Translations under genes and position numbers: made by a program | Origin: Anaerolineales bacterium | GTDB taxonomy: Bacteria; Chloroflexota; Anaerolineae; Anaerolineales; UBA11579 | Direction: 5' to 3' | Assembly (NCBI GenBank): GCA_021463845.1 | Contig: JAJTXV010000001.1 | Coordinates: 124,001-188,000 of the forward strand | Length of the DNA stretch: 64,000 bases | In this document: in pieces, positions 6,599 to 12,959 of the stretch | How the letters are laid out: every line of letters begins with the position of its first letter | Numbering within the stretch: position 1 is the stretch's first letter | Notes under the pieces: model-generated | Database searches by the model: none | Told to the model about the DNA's origin: nothing | What the model saw: only the letters and a program-made list of their open reading frames with translations

Positions 6599-6628
6599 TT
6601 GACAGCCCTTTGAGCCTGCGGGTATAGT
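6599..6628 (+). promoter_or_regulatory. Promoter of the glutamate synthase leader
   Basis: TTGACA at 6599-6604 and TATAGT at 6623-6628, spaced 18 nt: a near-consensus sigma-70 promoter. Transcription should start near 6635, leaving an untranslated leader of about 390 nt before the first gene. Confidence 0.65.
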
Positions 6629-6634
6629 TCCCCC

Positions 6635-7007
6635 GGTTAACAATCGAATAGGAGAACCAGCGGCTGGGCCTTCTACGCTCTGCGGGTGACTACGTCCCCC
6701 CTGGAGCGTTTAAGGTTACGAGGTGGAAGTTGCGCTGAATGGCATGTTTATGCCATTCAGCGCCGGGCGAACAGCAGATGCAGTTATCTGCCACGCGCCT
6801 TGATCGAGCAATCAGCGGATGCTTCCGAAGCCTGACTACGGGCTTCCCTTCTCCTTCCAGAACAAGCAGCGTTGCAAAACCGCCCGGTGACGGGCGAGAC
6901 AAACGGCGCCGCAGTAGTTGCAAGCCCACTTGCTTTTAACGGTGGAGTGTGCCTGCAGTCAACATTGGAAGGTGTGACCTGGATGGGCACGCCATGTGCC
7001 CATTTTT
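6635..7007 (+). ncRNA. Candidate structured leader RNA or independent small RNA before the glutamate synthase operon
   Basis: No protein gene is evident here. A series of hairpins lies between a promoter and an intrinsic terminator. They are 6675-6709 (ACGCTC with GAGCGT), 6732-6763 (14 bp perfect, loop GTTT), 6774-6791 (GCAGAT with ATCTGC), 6827-6846 (GAAGCC with GGCTTC), 6881-6896 (CGCCCG with CGGGCG, GNRA-type loop GTGA), 6920-6933 (GCAAG with CTTGC, then TTTT) and the terminator 6983-7007. I could not match it to RNase P RNA, tmRNA, SRP RNA or the common riboswitch cores by eye. A metabolite-sensing leader or an antitermination target is the favoured reading; a stand-alone RNA is possible. 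Confidence 0.45.
6983..7007 (+). terminator. Intrinsic terminator just upstream of the first glutamate synthase gene
   Basis: ATGGGCAC and GTGCCCAT form a perfect 8-bp stem (loop GCCAT) followed by TTTTT. It ends 21 nt before the ATG at 7029, so readthrough must be controlled or partial. The GTG at 6996 lies inside this stem and is rejected as a start. Confidence 0.75.
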
Positions 7008-7028
7008 GTTGGGCGAGAAAGGGTATTG

Positions 7029-8456
7029 ATGACGCACGCGCCTACAGGCTCACACGCACATACCGGGTATCACCGCTATCACATTCCTACCAAGCCAGCT
7101 CCAGACATCGAAAAGTGGCCCAGCCGCTTCAAGGTCAAAGTGCGCCGCAGCGGACTGGCCAAGCTCCTGCTATCCGAAGTCTTTCATTACCGCGGCCGCA
7201 AGGATGTCATTCTTAGCCGCCCCTGCATGTATGGCGTCTTCTCAGGCCCGGTGGGCGGCTTCATGCCGCGCGAGGAGCACTGCGTGGGCTGCCTGCGCTG
7301 CACCACCGAGTTCCCGGAGTTCGTGCGCATCGAGCACAACCCCGAGCGCCAAAAGCTGGGCGACTCGTACTTCACCTTCAATTATGTAGACCAGATCGCC
7401 TATGAGTCTTCCAGTGGCCTGGTGCCCGTGCGCGGCGCCGGCTACCGCGGCAAATTTGGCGGTGAGGGCTGGGACGGCATGTGGACGGATATGTCCGAGA
7501 TCGTGCGCCCCACGCGTGACGGCATCCACGGCCGTGAGACTATCTCTACTGTCGTAGACATTGGCTACACCCCCAACTTCCTGCAATTTGACGCCGCCGG
7601 CCAACCGGTGGGCAATACCCCGCAGACTCTCTCGATCCAACTCCCCATCCTCTTCGATGGCGGGGATCTGCCCCGTGGCGGCCAGGCCGCAGCCATCTAT
7701 GCCCGCGCCGCCGCCGAGCTGGATACGCTGGCTGTGCTGACCTTTGAGCAGGCCATCGGCCTGGGCCAGTACGCCCGCGCCGTCGTACCCGTGCTGCGTC
7801 CGCAAGACGCAGCACGGCTTGGCCAGCTCGGCTTCGTGCCGCGCGTCGTCGAGATGCACGGCTGGGATGACGCCCTCCATGCCGCCATCACCGCCGCCTT
7901 CCCCGAAGCCATCATTGCCCTGCGCACGGGTTTCGAAGACACGCCAGCCCTGGTTGCTTATGCCCAGCGCGGCGTCAAGGTCTTCCACCTGCTGGCCGAT
8001 TTCCACGGCCGCAGCCCGGAGGGCGGCTTTGTGCTCGACCTGATCCGCGACGCCCACAAGGCCTTCGTGGATGCAGGCATTCGTGAAGAAGTCACCCTGC
8101 TCGGCAGCGGCGGCATGATCGCCGCCGAGCATATGCCCAAGGCCATGATCTGCGGGCTGGATGCTGTGGCCGTAGACACGCCGCTGCTGGTGGCGCTGCA
8201 AGCCCGCTTCGGCGGCGAATGCGCCAGCCGCACCGCCAGTGAGTTCGTATTGCCGGCCCGCCTCAGCGAAGCCTGGGGCGTGCAGCGCCTCAAGAACCTG
8301 GCCGCCTCGTGGCGTGACCAGCTGCTCGAGATCCTCGGCGCCATGGGCCTGCGTGAAGTGCGCCGCCTGCGCGGCGAGATGGGCCGCGCCATGTTCATGA
8401 AAACACTGGAAGCAGATGCCTTCGCCGGCCTGCTGGGTTACACGGAGGCCAACTAA
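7029..8456 (+). CDS. Glutamate synthase-like FMN-domain paralogue with ferredoxin-type Cys motif
   Basis: 475 residues from ATG 7029, preceded by AAAGGG. An N-terminal Cys motif (C85-V-G-C88-L-R-C91) suits an iron-sulphur site. The rest follows the glutamate synthase central barrel (AGYRGKFGGEGWDGMWTDMSE, VKVFHLLADFHG, EEVTLLGSGGMIAAEHMPKA). Compared with the next gene product it has lost the 3Fe-4S cysteine cluster and most barrel catalytic residues, so it may be a structural or electron-transfer partner. The two proteins share the C-terminal layout ending in a GLREVRRLRG-type segment, indicating an old tandem duplication. Stop and next start overlap as TAATG. The exact role is inferred. Confidence 0.75.
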   Translation: MTHAPTGSHAHTGYHRYHIPTKPAPDIEKWPSRFKVKVRRSGLAKLLLSEVFHYRGRKDVILSRPCMYGVFSGPVGGFMPREEHCVGCLRCTTEFPEFVRIEHNPERQKLGDSYFTFNYVDQIAYESSSGLVPVRGAGYRGKFGGEGWDGMWTDMSEIVRPTRDGIHGRETISTVVDIGYTPNFLQFDAAGQPVGNTPQTLSIQLPILFDGGDLPRGGQAAAIYARAAAELDTLAVLTFEQAIGLGQYARAVVPVLRPQDAARLGQLGFVPRVVEMHGWDDALHAAITAAFPEAIIALRTGFEDTPALVAYAQRGVKVFHLLADFHGRSPEGGFVLDLIRDAHKAFVDAGIREEVTLLGSGGMIAAEHMPKAMICGLDAVAVDTPLLVALQARFGGECASRTASEFVLPARLSEAWGVQRLKNLAASWRDQLLEILGAMGLREVRRLRGEMGRAMFMKTLEADAFAGLLGYTEAN

Positions 8457-9757
8457 TGGCTAGCATCGCCAACAAGACCGACGAGCAGCTCATCGTCGAG
8501 AAGCACATTACCAATCTGCACAATGGCTTCGCTCACTGGCCGCGGGCCGAAGAGGCGCCGCCCGCCCTGGGCGACAGCCGCTGGACGCAGGACCTGATCC
8601 TCGCCACCTGGCTGATGGCCGAGACCGGCCAGGTGCCGGACAACGGCTTGGAGTACAAGATTGGAGCCTCCGGCGGCGGCTTTGACGTGCTCGATTTCAA
8701 CATCCCCAGCCAGGACAAGTGGCTGCCGGCGGACACCGAGATCGACCTGTCCATTCCGCTCAACCGCCGCGACGACGGCGCGCAGCTCAAAATAGACCTG
8801 CCGATGTACGGTGGCGGCATGTCATACGGCTCCATCAGCGAGCACGTTATGCAGGCTCGCGCCCGCGCCGCGCAGCAGCTAGGCACCTTCACCAGCACGG
8901 GGGAGGGTGGCTATCCGCCGTCGCTCGTGCCCTATAAGGACCACATCATCACCCAGGTGGCCACCGGCATGTTCGGCGTGCGCGAGGAAACCATCCAGTA
9001 CGCGCCGATCGTCGAATTCAAGTATGCCCAGGGCGCCAAGCCTGGCCTCGGCGGCCACCTGCTGGGCGACAAGGCCACCGATGTGGTCGCCGCTATGCGC
9101 GAGAGCGTGCCCTGGGTCAGCCTGTTCTCGCCGTTCCCGTTCCACTCCGTCTACTCCGTCGAAGACCACCGCAAGCATGTGGATTGGATCCGCACCACCA
9201 ACCCGCGCGCCCTGGTCTCGGTCAAAGTGTCCACGCCCACGGATGTGGATATGGTGGCGGTTGGCTCGTACTTCGCCGGCGCACACATCGTCCACCTGGA
9301 TGGCTCGTATGGCGGCACCGGCGCTGCGCCAGAAATTGCCAAGAAGAACATCGCTATGCCGATCGAGTTTGCCATCCCCAAGGTGCACAAGTATCTGGTC
9401 AGCGAGAATGTGCGCGAGGAAGTGACCCTGATGGCCAGCGGTGGAGTGCGCACCGCTTACGATGTCGCCAAGGCCATCGCCCTCGGCGCGGATGGCTGCG
9501 TCATGGGCACGGCCGAACTGATCGCGATTGGCTGCACGCGCTGCAGCAATTGCGAGCGCGGCCGCGGCTGCCCCTTCGGCCTCACCACCACTGACCCGCT
9601 GCTGCAGCAGCTCATGCCCGCTGACTGGGGCCAGCAGCGCATCGTCAATATGTACACCGCGTACGCCACCCAGCTGCGTGACCTGCTGCGCAAGCTGGGC
9701 TTGCGCAGCATTCGTGAGCTGCGCGGCAGAAGAGACCTACTGCGCTATGTGGGCTAA
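8456..9757 (+). CDS. Glutamate synthase FMN-binding domain protein
   Basis: 433 residues corresponding to the FMN/3Fe-4S synthase domain of ferredoxin- or NADPH-dependent glutamate synthase, which converts 2-oxoglutarate and ammonia (from glutamine) to glutamate. Seen here: GGMSYGSISEHVMQARARAA and STGEGGYPPSL of the substrate/FMN site, HLDGSYGGTGAAPEIAKKN, VTLMASGGVRTAYDVAKAIALGA of the phosphate-binding loop, and the 3Fe-4S cluster loop CTRCSNCERGRGCPFG near residues 360-371. The domain is encoded as its own gene instead of being fused to the amidotransferase. It overlaps the preceding gene by one base (TAATG). No NADPH-linked beta subunit is in the window. Confidence 0.88.
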   Translation: MASIANKTDEQLIVEKHITNLHNGFAHWPRAEEAPPALGDSRWTQDLILATWLMAETGQVPDNGLEYKIGASGGGFDVLDFNIPSQDKWLPADTEIDLSIPLNRRDDGAQLKIDLPMYGGGMSYGSISEHVMQARARAAQQLGTFTSTGEGGYPPSLVPYKDHIITQVATGMFGVREETIQYAPIVEFKYAQGAKPGLGGHLLGDKATDVVAAMRESVPWVSLFSPFPFHSVYSVEDHRKHVDWIRTTNPRALVSVKVSTPTDVDMVAVGSYFAGAHIVHLDGSYGGTGAAPEIAKKNIAMPIEFAIPKVHKYLVSENVREEVTLMASGGVRTAYDVAKAIALGADGCVMGTAELIAIGCTRCSNCERGRGCPFGLTTTDPLLQQLMPADWGQQRIVNMYTAYATQLRDLLRKLGLRSIRELRGRRDLLRYVG

Positions 9758-9936: not shown

Positions 9937-10239
9937 ATGGCAAAGTATGAAAAGCGTCCCTGCGTGTACATAATGACGAACGCCCACAACACTGTTCTCT
10001 ATACCGGAGTCACCAGCGATTTATCAACTCGCCTGTTTCAGCACCAAGGCAACCCAGGCGTTGGCTTCACGGCTCGCTATCGTACGAAAAAGCTGGTGTA
10101 CGTCGAGGCACTTGAGGATATGGAACAGGCTATTTTGCGTGAGAAGCAGATCAAAGGCGGTTCGCGCCAAAAGAAGATTGACCTGATTAAGTCGCTCAAT
10201 CCGGAATGGAAAGACCTTTCGGAGGAATTCCTTAGCTAA
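9937..10239 (+). CDS. GIY-YIG nuclease superfamily protein (YhbQ/UPF0213-like)
   Basis: 100 residues, a minimal single-domain GIY-YIG protein. The N-terminal YIM...LYTGVTSDLSTRLFQHQG carries the variant GIY/YIG strands (VYIM and YTGVT), the conserved Arg (STRLFQH) and a downstream Glu (EALEDMEQAILREKQIKGG) that usually binds the metal. The C-terminus RQKKIDLIKSLNPEWKDLS is typical of this small family. It lies between two inverted copies of palindromic repeat family 1 and interrupts the glutamate synthase operon, so it looks like a mobile insertion rather than an operon member. Its cellular role is unknown; a link to repeat movement is speculation, treated in the findings. Confidence 0.9.
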   Translation: MAKYEKRPCVYIMTNAHNTVLYTGVTSDLSTRLFQHQGNPGVGFTARYRTKKLVYVEALEDMEQAILREKQIKGGSRQKKIDLIKSLNPEWKDLSEEFLS

Positions 10240-10245
10240 TAGCGT

Positions 10246-10310
10246 GGGGATTGCTTCGTCGGCTGGTAGTTGCATGTTCATGCAACTACCAGCACTCCTC
10301 GCAAAGACGG
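10246..10310 (-). repeat. Palindromic repeat family 1, copy c, right flank of the GIY-YIG gene
   Basis: Inverted relative to copy b: GGGGATTGCTTCGTC, a 14-bp perfect palindrome with loop GTTC (10262-10293; arm GCTGGTAGTTGCAT), then ACTCCTCGCAAAGACGG. It ends about 13 nt before the next gene. Confidence 0.88.
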
Positions 10311-10322
10311 TCGGAGAATAGT

Positions 10323-12959
10323 ATGAATAATGATGATTTGATTCGATTGTTAAACAGCCGCAGCAAACTGCCGCGCACCGACCTGGCCCAATTCAACCGC
10401 GATGAAGCCGCCGAAGGCGGCTGTGGCGTGATCGGCATGGCCAGCAGCGAGCGGGTGGCCGCCCGCCATATGCTGGCCGCCCTGGCGCAGATGAGCAACC
10501 GCGGCAACGGCAAGGGTGGCGGAATCGCCGCCGTGGGCCTGGACGCGGCCGAGTTCGGCGTCAGCCCAGACCTGCTGCACAATGACTACTTGCTCGCCAT
10601 GGCCTACATGGACCCAGCGGCCCGTGCCGAGGTGGAAGCGCAATACATCCACCCGGTCTTCGAGATCGATCACGTGCGCGAGCAGCCCCACATGGCTGAC
10701 TACACCCAGATCGCCGGGCTGGATGTGCGCCCGCCGGATGTGGTGCAGTACTTCGTGCGCCCCAAGGCCGCCGCGCTGGCAGCCTTTCGCGCCGAGCACG
10801 ACTTCATGAACTTGCCGGAGCGCGCCGTCGAAGACGAATACGTCTACCAGAACAGCTTCAAGATCAACACCACCTACTACGCCTCGCTGGGTGAGAAGCG
10901 CGCCTTCGTGCTCTCGCACGCCAAGAACCTGCTGGTGCTTAAGATGGTCGGCTACGGCGATGATGTCATCCGCTACTACCAACTGGAAGACATGCACGCC
11001 CATGTGTGGATCGGCCACCACCGCTATCCCACCAAGGGCCGCGTCTGGCACCCTGGCGGCGCCCATCCCTTCATTGGTATGAACGAGGCCCTGGTCCACA
11101 ATGGCGATTTTGCCAACCATGCCTCCATCAGCGAATACCTGGCGCAGCGCAACATCTACCCGCTGTATCTGACCGATACCGAAGTGGCGGTGCAGGTCTT
11201 CGACCTGTTGTATCGCACCTACAACTATCCGCTCGAATACGTCATCGAGGCGCTCGCACCCACCACCGAGCGCGACTTCACCTTGCTCCCTGCTGACAAG
11301 CGGCGCATCTACTCCATGCTGCAGAGCAGCCACATCCACTCTTCGCCGGACGGGCCGTGGTTCTTCCTCATCGCCCAGTCTGATGAGGGCAAGCAGGGCG
11401 AGGCGGTCTATCGCCTCACCGGCATCACCGATACCAGCATGCTGCGCCCGCAGGTATTCGCCTGGCAGGAGAGCGTTGTCGACGGCGAAACCGTCTCGAT
11501 CGCGCTGGCCGCTTCCGAGAAGCAGGGCATCGATGCCGCCATGATCAGCCTGGCGGCCGAAGATTCGCGCTTCTGGTCACGCGCTGACCGCTATTGGAAC
11601 GCCCGCGGCGGCAGCCATACGGATGGCGGCGCCTTCTTGTTCAGTGTGCACGACGACTACAAGACGAAGCCCAGGCTGGTGCTGACCAACAAATTTGGCC
11701 AGCCCGTCAAGCAGCCCACCAGCCGCACGGCCTACGACCGTGCGTTGTACAGCCCGGCTGCCATGACGCTGCCATCCGGCAGCGCCACCGAGCTGTTCAA
11801 CTGGGCGCTGACCCAACTGCCCGGCTGGAGCTACCAGCAGGCCCAAGACTTCCTGGCCGGCGTGGAAGCCAGCGCCAATGGCGAAGCCAACGACGCCGGC
11901 CGCACCCGCGCCATCGAGCTGCTCTCGCTGCTCATGGACCGCCGCTATCCCACCGGCCACCTGCGCCGCAGCAGTCTGGTCTCGCTGGTGGATGCCAGCT
12001 TTGAGCGCGTGATGGCCAGCATCAAAGCCGCACCCAGCGTGGACTACCTGTATCACGCGTACGGCGCCAGCCTGCCCAAAGCGGCCAGCAGCACGCAGAC
12101 GCTGATCCTCGACGCGCAGGGCTACCCGCCGCAGGGCGACGACTCGGTCGGCCGCGAAGTCCAGCGCATCGTCGCGGCCGGCTTCCGCCATATCCTGATC
12201 ATTCACCTGCGCGGCCAGCGCTTCATCGGCAACGGCATCGGCACCAATACGCGGGATGTACATATCCACACCTACGGCTCGGCGGGCGACTATCTCGCCT
12301 CCGGCCTGGATGGCGCCACGATCACCGTGCACAACAACGGGCAGGACCAGTTGGCCCAGATCATGAAAGCCGGCCGCCTGGTCGTGCACGGCGATGTGGG
12401 CCAGACCTTTATGTACGGCGCCAAGGGCGGCAGCGCCTTCATCCTTGGCAACGCCGCCGGCCGCCCGCTCATCAACGCGGTCGGCAAGCCGCGCGTGGTC
12501 ATCAACGGCACTTGCCTCGACTACCTGGCCGAATCCTTCATGGCCGGCGACCCGCTCAACGGCGGCGGCTTCGTGGTGCTCAATGGCGTCATGTTTGACG
12601 AAGATGGCCAGATCGCCGAGCTCGAAACGCCCTATCCGGGCAGCAACCTGTTCTCGCTGGCTTCCGGCGGCGCCATCTATGTGCGTGACCCGCACCAGCG
12701 CGTCGTAGCCGAGCAGCTCAATGGCGGCGAGTTCGTGCCGCTCAGTGAAGCCGACTGGGCGCTGATCCTGCCTTATCTCGAAGAGAATGAGCGCTTGTTC
12801 GGCATCCCGCTCGCCCGCCTGCTTGAGGTCGATGGTATTGCTCGCGCTCCGCACGAGGTCTACCGCAAGATCCAGCCCGGCTCCGTGCGCGCCCTGCAGG
12901 CCGAGGAAGCCTGGGTCACTAAGGCGAAGACGCCCACCGCCAGCGGCGGTGGGCACTAG
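10323..12959 (+). CDS. Glutamate synthase large-subunit part: glutamine amidotransferase plus GXGXG domain
   Basis: 878 residues from ATG 10323. The N-terminal half is a class II glutamine amidotransferase. Cys34 (EGGCGVIGM) would be the catalytic nucleophile after removal of a 33-residue propeptide, as in GltB. HHRYPTKGRVWHPGGAHPF and LVHNGDFANH are the glutamine-site motifs. The C-terminal third (near residues 640-800) is the GXGXG beta-helix (GLDGATITVHNNGQDQLAQI, LVVHGDVGQTFMYGAKGG). The FMN domain normally between these parts is supplied by the gene at 8456. It releases ammonia from glutamine for the synthase. The GIY-YIG insertion separates it from its two operon partners; a strong terminator follows. 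Confidence 0.87.
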   Translation: MNNDDLIRLLNSRSKLPRTDLAQFNRDEAAEGGCGVIGMASSERVAARHMLAALAQMSNRGNGKGGGIAAVGLDAAEFGVSPDLLHNDYLLAMAYMDPAARAEVEAQYIHPVFEIDHVREQPHMADYTQIAGLDVRPPDVVQYFVRPKAAALAAFRAEHDFMNLPERAVEDEYVYQNSFKINTTYYASLGEKRAFVLSHAKNLLVLKMVGYGDDVIRYYQLEDMHAHVWIGHHRYPTKGRVWHPGGAHPFIGMNEALVHNGDFANHASISEYLAQRNIYPLYLTDTEVAVQVFDLLYRTYNYPLEYVIEALAPTTERDFTLLPADKRRIYSMLQSSHIHSSPDGPWFFLIAQSDEGKQGEAVYRLTGITDTSMLRPQVFAWQESVVDGETVSIALAASEKQGIDAAMISLAAEDSRFWSRADRYWNARGGSHTDGGAFLFSVHDDYKTKPRLVLTNKFGQPVKQPTSRTAYDRALYSPAAMTLPSGSATELFNWALTQLPGWSYQQAQDFLAGVEASANGEANDAGRTRAIELLSLLMDRRYPTGHLRRSSLVSLVDASFERVMASIKAAPSVDYLYHAYGASLPKAASSTQTLILDAQGYPPQGDDSVGREVQRIVAAGFRHILIIHLRGQRFIGNGIGTNTRDVHIHTYGSAGDYLASGLDGATITVHNNGQDQLAQIMKAGRLVVHGDVGQTFMYGAKGGSAFILGNAAGRPLINAVGKPRVVINGTCLDYLAESFMAGDPLNGGGFVVLNGVMFDEDGQIAELETPYPGSNLFSLASGGAIYVRDPHQRVVAEQLNGGEFVPLSEADWALILPYLEENERLFGIPLARLLEVDGIARAPHEVYRKIQPGSVRALQAEEAWVTKAKTPTASGGGH

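Follow-up and report, generated by a model that had tools for sequence, protein, structure and literature searches.

A divergent glmS-type ribozyme with an apparent expression platform lies in the leader of a split glutamate synthase operon in Anaerolineales

The window, a 64,000-nucleotide stretch of an Anaerolineales genome (contig JAJTXV010000001.1 of assembly GCA_021463845.1), encodes a glutamate synthase that is split into two PF01645 proteins and a class II amidotransferase/GXGXG protein. The first of the three genes is preceded by a promoter, a long structured leader and an intrinsic terminator.

6599-6628, + strand: sigma-70-type promoter found by consensus scan (TTGACA 6599-6604, 18-nt spacer, TATAGT 6623-6628)
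6635-6659, + strand: 5' leader before the predicted cleavage site, with a conserved AACAA(U/C)(U/C)GAAUA and the P0 5' strand AGGAGAA (6650-6656)
6660-6918, + strand: glmS-type ribozyme, core plus P3/P3.1/P4 (RF00234, 24.7 bits; R1, 132 bits)
6982-7007, + strand: intrinsic terminator, GATGGGCAC GCCAT GTGCCCAT TTTTG, 21 nt short of the start codon ATG at 7029
7029-8456, + strand: glutamate synthase part 1, 475 aa (PF01645)
8456-9757, + strand: glutamate synthase part 2, FMN domain, 433 aa (PF01645, 304 bits)
10251-12959, + strand: glutamate synthase part 3, glutamine amidotransferase class II plus GXGXG, 902 aa as called (PF13522, PF01493)

A small GIY-YIG-like ORF, recognized by eye, occupies positions 9937-10239 between the second and third of these genes.

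The sequence-only reading had described a near-consensus promoter at 6599, an intrinsic terminator just ahead of the first gene and, between them, a structured regulatory leader of glutamate synthase, each of which is borne out here. The promoter matches 11 of 12 consensus positions, the scan lists only 2 promoter-like sites over 3 kb where shuffled sequence yields 0.4 +/- 0.7, and the same layout recurs upstream of the ribozymes of relatives. Transcription is predicted to start near 6635, and the AACAA(U/C)(U/C)GAAUA element at the transcript start (6639-6649) is strikingly conserved between the window and the leaders of relatives. The leader (6634-7016) folds at -169.6 kcal/mol (z = -5.07), with an equally stable fold in 0 of 100 shuffles, and is conserved with covariation in relatives. 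A terminator hairpin of the same kind, changed in sequence, stands before most of the relatives' genes, and the terminator is probably regulated. The consensus terminator scan did not list the hairpin at 6982-7007, probably because the stem was allowed to run into the U-tract, and an automatic search did not find a terminator hairpin in L043, L047, L098, L112 and L126. A stand-alone RNA of about 370 nt, the other form suggested earlier, is possible as the terminated product and in no other form. The broader proposal that promoter, ribozyme and terminator constitute a stand-alone small RNA, with occasional read-through into the gene, draws on the strong terminator and on loci linked to an Ada-like gene (below), where at least 150 nt may separate the terminator from the gene. 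We consider it very improbable given that many genera repeat the unit immediately ahead of a glutamate synthase or glutamine synthetase gene and that the promoter scan found no second promoter between the leader and the gene in the window.

At the gathering threshold, an Rfam scan of the window returned tRNAs only. The leader had been called unassigned pending an Rfam search, with no known riboswitch core recognized by eye; this assessment did not hold, as a permissive scan of the leader yielded one match to a known family, the glmS ribozyme (RF00234, 6748-6922, 24.7 bits, E = 8e-4). The score lies below the RF00234 gathering score of 37 bits, which is a threshold of the model and not a structural feature, and it is exceeded by the homologous leaders that precede this glutamate synthase gene in L005 (41.4 bits) and L014 (39.2 bits). 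The alignment start at 6748 was rejected as a false 5' end, since relatives place the 5' half of the core at 6659, and the low score of the window is explained by an insertion (6732-6801) that forces this start. A covariance model built from 20 sequences of relatives, R1, matches the window leader at 6648-6923 with 132 bits. Homology of the leader to the glmS (glucosamine-6-phosphate, GlcN6P) ribozymes, as a divergent member, is near certain on these comparisons, and by analogy with the family it is very likely that the leader cleaves itself in dependence on GlcN6P. Neither Rfam scan gave a match of the leader to the glnA RNA or Downstream-peptide glutamine riboswitches, which have in common with it the RNA control of nitrogen-assimilation genes. 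Among other candidates, tmRNA and tRNA were excluded as the identity of the leader, a minus-strand match in its own genome is merely the self-complementary hairpin 6732-6763, and the glmS matches in L030 and L031 look like chance.

The ribozyme parts are arranged along the leader as follows, with a slash marking the cut.

6659-6660, + strand: predicted self-cleavage site A(-1)/G(+1), that is A6659/G6660, within A/GCG
6661-6666, + strand: P2.2 5' strand CG(G)CUG, bulge at nt 4, in a pseudoknot with CAGCG 6813-6817
6667-6717, + strand: P1 stem-loop, with two-sided change in 8 of 10 pairs
6718-6723, + strand: ACGAGG core, in which G6723 is the catalytic active-site G (B. subtilis G42)
6725-6729, + strand: P2 5' strand GGAAG, partner CUUCC 6822-6826
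6732-6801, + strand: two inserted hairpins that separate P2 from the GAUCGA motif, differing in size and sequence among relatives
6802-6822, + strand: GAUCGAGCAAUCAGCGGAUGC, the ligand pocket and the 3' strands of P2.1 and P2.2
6827-6846, + strand: P3 hairpin, whose loop ACUAC (6835-6839) forms the P3.1 pseudoknot with GUAGU (6914-6918)
6865-6911, + strand: P4 domain, with hairpin CCGCCCGGUGACGGGCG (6880-6896) and a GACAAA internal loop

All of the catalytic motifs are present in the window (A/GCG 6659-6662, ACGAGG 6718-6723, AUCGA 6803-6807 and GCGGA 6815-6819). As a set they vary little or not at all among 84 aligned ribozymes, and A/GCG, ACGAGG and GCGGA are without variation in 84 of 84. 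When core residues were mapped by the B. subtilis numbering of PMC11602151, A37, C38, A40, G41 and G42 fell within A6718-G6723, C54/G55 corresponded to C6805/G6806 and G67 to G6818. The same numbering led us to reject a replacement of the catalytic G by U, as the substituted base precedes ACGAGG. Judged by these residues, the catalytic core is intact.

The double pseudoknot P2.1/P2.2 and the helices P1, P2, P3, P3.1 and P4 are all found in the leader. The seven hairpins counted previously are roughly right as secondary structure, yet the functional core is this double pseudoknot, which the counting of hairpins cannot show. The conservation in relatives that the earlier reading had proposed to look for is evident, with a covariation score, pseudoknots included, of 0.374; shuffles gave 0.179 +/- 0.010, and sliding the pairing partners gave no more than 0.20. 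In the alignment of relatives, 47 of 64 pairs have changed on both sides, P3.1 shows compensatory change in three of its five pairs, and the columns of P0, a pairing described below, are 92% paired with compensatory changes; the P2.1 and P2.2 pairs are nearly invariable, so that they are backed by conservation alone. A chance resemblance of an unrelated new RNA class to glmS ribozymes, for which one might cite the sub-threshold score in the window, is effectively refuted by homologous leaders that score above the cut-off, by the full set of core motifs and pseudoknots, and by the covarying structure.

The leader resembles the RF00234 ribozymes of Bacillus subtilis, B. anthracis and Thermoanaerobacter tengcongensis in A/GCG, in ACGAGG with the catalytic G, in the AUCGA and GCGGA pocket motifs and in the complete set of helices (P1, P2, P2.1, P2.2, P3, P3.1 and P4 with tetraloop). 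It differs from them in the two-hairpin insertion between P2 and P2.1, in the bulge of P2.2, which has moved from nt 6 to nt 4, in an additional module made up of P0 and of P5, antiterminator and terminator, and in preceding glutamate synthase rather than glmS. Extra stems in the core are reportedly also a feature of Deinococcus-Thermus glmS variants (McCown et al. 2011); those variants are said to lie nearly all before glmS, unlike the leader described here. The same survey is said to have placed all but two of 463 glmS ribozymes in glmS mRNAs.

Searches with RF00234 at E up to 1 detected glmS-type matches in 21 of the 24 genomes of the window's family, with 7 above the cut-off. Of these matches, some precede glmS, many precede the same glutamate synthase gene as in the window, and one precedes glutamine synthetase. 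R1 matched 22 of these 24 genomes, 248 of 395 genomes of the class and 82 of 251 in a sample of the phylum. At its default threshold the Rfam model therefore overlooks many members, reaching 7 of 24 genomes against 22 of 24 with R1. The window's own genome carries two copies, the leader under study and one directly before glmS. At 60 loci examined, the gene that follows the ribozyme is glmS in 37, glutamine synthetase in 7, glutamate synthase in 4 and another gene in 12, most of the latter being an AraC/O6-methylguanine-methyltransferase (Ada-like) gene of one family. Overall, about 25 distinct copies are linked to glutamate synthase, occurring in named relatives across many Anaerolineales, and 8 to glutamine synthetase; in L041, a single ribozyme is followed by glutamine synthetase and then glutamate synthase. 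Of 14 copies sampled from outside the class, 13 stand before glmS, so that glmS was probably the original target, and the nitrogen genes were probably added as targets within this group. A pattern search of glutamate synthase homologues from other phyla did not find a ribozyme upstream, and R1 detected none in L048, L054, L058, L059 and L065, loci that are either truncated or distant.

On alignment, the ribozymes form two subtypes, one mostly before glmS and the other, which we term N-type, before glutamate synthase, glutamine synthetase or the Ada-like gene. The N-type signature AGCG(G/A)CUG occurs in 26 of 28 copies linked to glutamate synthase, in 7/7 linked to glutamine synthetase and in 10/10 linked to the Ada-like gene, and in none of 34 linked to glmS. 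It reflects a P2.2 in which CG(n)CUG pairs with CAGCG around a bulge at nt 4, the canonical bulge being at nt 6, and many N-type copies carry U or C, not G, immediately before ACGAGG. A FastTree phylogeny of the aligned RNAs separates the subtypes but for two misplacements, L112 and L126, both of which precede a different glutamate synthase; support for the split is 0.65, or 0.975 if one further error is allowed. The N-type is apparently an undescribed Anaerolineales branch of the glmS ribozymes. The relocated bulge, the altered base before ACGAGG and the target genes other than glmS could also be taken to mean that the N-type has lost cleavage or now responds to a different ligand, such as a nitrogen signal or an amino sugar phosphate other than GlcN6P, and switches the terminator as a plain aptamer. 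This appears quite improbable, as the A/G of the cleavage site and the catalytic G are invariant in the N-type and variants of the glmS core with a shifted P2.2 bulge regained activity in vitro in a mutagenesis study (PMC7125110).

The possible means of control lies in three further segments.

6849-6858, + strand: UUCUCCUUCC, the P0 3' strand (6849-6855) overlapping the P5 5' strand CCUUCC (6853-6858)
6967-6976, + strand: GGAAGGUGUG, the P5 3' strand GGAAGG (6967-6972) overlapping the antiterminator strand GGUGUG (6971-6976)
6988-6993, + strand: antiterminator partner CACGCC, in the 5' arm and loop of the terminator

In both subtypes, the pre-cleavage leader pairs with the pyrimidine stretch after P3 to form P0, with examples including GGAGAA/UUCUCC, GGAAGAG/CUCUUCC and GGAAAAG/CUUUUCC. 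The downstream partner of P5 is GGAAGGG before the terminator in the N-type and the Shine-Dalgarno sequence UGGAGG in the glmS type. Every leader examined (39 of 39 of the N-type, 34 of 34 of the glmS type) has bases that belong to both P0 and P5, although no GGAAGG strand could be located in L083, L086 and L105. N-type leaders have a further pairing, in which the bases that follow GGAA join the 5' arm and loop of the terminator as an antiterminator (GGGUGUG/CACGCCC, GGGUGUA/UACGCCC, GGGUGC/GCACCC and GGGCAU/AUGCCC). The mean energy of this duplex is -12.8 kcal/mol with each leader's own terminator compared to -10.85 +/- 0.27 kcal/mol with swapped terminators, a difference reached in 0 of 10,000 permutations by a statistic that ignores the kinship of the leaders. 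The antiterminator strand covaries with each leader's own terminator and its pairing overlaps the terminator arm.

By duplex energies, which leave pseudoknots and timing out of account, the antiterminator outweighs P5 in all 36 leaders compared when P0 is present, while in the absence of P0 the full P5 is the stronger in only 23 of 36; in the window without P0, the antiterminator is still the stronger (P5 -10.5 vs antiterminator -12.0 kcal/mol). P5 also crosses P3.1, such that the two may not coexist, and P0 is only about 7 bp, so that the cut leader might remain bound.

These pairings bear on whether the leader simply extends ordinary glmS control to a new target, with GlcN6P-dependent cleavage followed by decay of the 5'-OH mRNA, the terminator acting as a constant attenuator, and P0, P5 and antiterminator not switching. 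The core is intact and cleavage followed by decay (through RNase J1 in Bacillus) is the established glmS mechanism (PMC7125110, PMC10907184). However, a covarying antiterminator and common P0/P5 bases occur in nearly all N-type leaders, and in glmS-linked copies the P5 partner is the Shine-Dalgarno sequence and not a terminator, which suggests a built-in switch; we regard ordinary control as unlikely, though well worth entertaining.

Instead, we moderately favor a model in which a GlcN6P-dependent N-type ribozyme controls the glutamate synthase operon through a leader-release switch, with the ligand, the cleavage and the direction of control inferred from the ribozyme family and the pairing logic and the order of events proposed on the same grounds. 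At low GlcN6P, the RNA would be uncut and the pre-cleavage leader would pair with UUCUCC (P0), masking two or three bases of the neighboring CCUUCC; the downstream GGAAGG would then pair only weakly, GGUGUG would pair with CACGCC, and transcription would read through into glutamate synthase. At high GlcN6P, the ribozyme would be cut at A6659/G6660, the leader of about 25 nt would depart and the full P5 (CCUUCC:GGAAGG) would form, with the loss of the antiterminator and a halt of transcription at the terminator. Decay of the 5'-OH cleavage product may add to this, as it does in Bacillus, and in the glmS type the freed segment would cover the Shine-Dalgarno sequence at the same step. GlcN6P is made from glutamine, and a high level can thereby report sufficient nitrogen. 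The nitrogen-status control first suggested for this leader is accordingly plausible in its link to nitrogen, while the core points to GlcN6P as the ligand, not to glutamine or ammonium directly. That a strand-release ribozyme switch operates with GlcN6P as the common signal of a glmS/glutamate synthase/glutamine synthetase regulon is a wider proposal, to which we give even chances.

Mutually exclusive pairings that end in an intrinsic terminator are shared with transcription-attenuating riboswitches, in which the trigger is a ligand-stabilized fold rather than, as proposed here, the loss of a strand by self-cleavage. In the literature, glmS ribozymes are described as lying in the 5' UTR of glmS and working by mRNA decay (PMC2258182, PMC7125110, PMC10907184), and as feedback devices for a single gene; a 2024 review holds that they are not riboswitches, as the expression machinery is not instructed, and that further biological examples are needed (PMC10907184). 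Searches of the open-access literature turned up no glmS ribozyme described ahead of glutamate synthase or glutamine synthetase, and none from this class. As judged from that literature, the novelty lies in the target genes, which for the N-type include glutamine synthetase, and in what appears to be an expression platform, which glmS ribozymes are not known to carry. With an N-type before nitrogen genes and a seeming expression platform, both the view of one-gene feedback and the view that these ribozymes are not riboswitches become testable. If the model is true, GlcN6P would signal nitrogen status in a large group of bacteria, most of them uncultured, and the leader would show that strand release can drive a switch in nature.

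Several less common gene arrangements were also observed. An N-type ribozyme and terminator are conserved before the Ada-like gene in L085, L107, L109, L110, L114, L116, L118, L121, L123, L125, L148, L150, L152 and L153, loci of one Anaerolineales family, some of which have an EamA-like transporter ORF after that gene. In L045, L046 and L047, the ribozyme is followed by a MOSC-like gene (Pfam-confirmed in L047) and then glutamate synthase. A glmS-type ribozyme lies upstream of an FAD-binding oxidase gene in L101 and of a DegT/DnrJ/EryC1-type aminotransferase in L097 and L134 (Pfam-confirmed in L097), the latter plausibly with a role in amino-sugar metabolism. Finally, in L087, L088 and L093, counted among the 37 glmS loci despite the intervening gene, an unusual ORF separates the ribozyme from a glmS about 1.28 kb downstream, and its product in L087 has Pfam matches to both a GTPase and a SIS domain.
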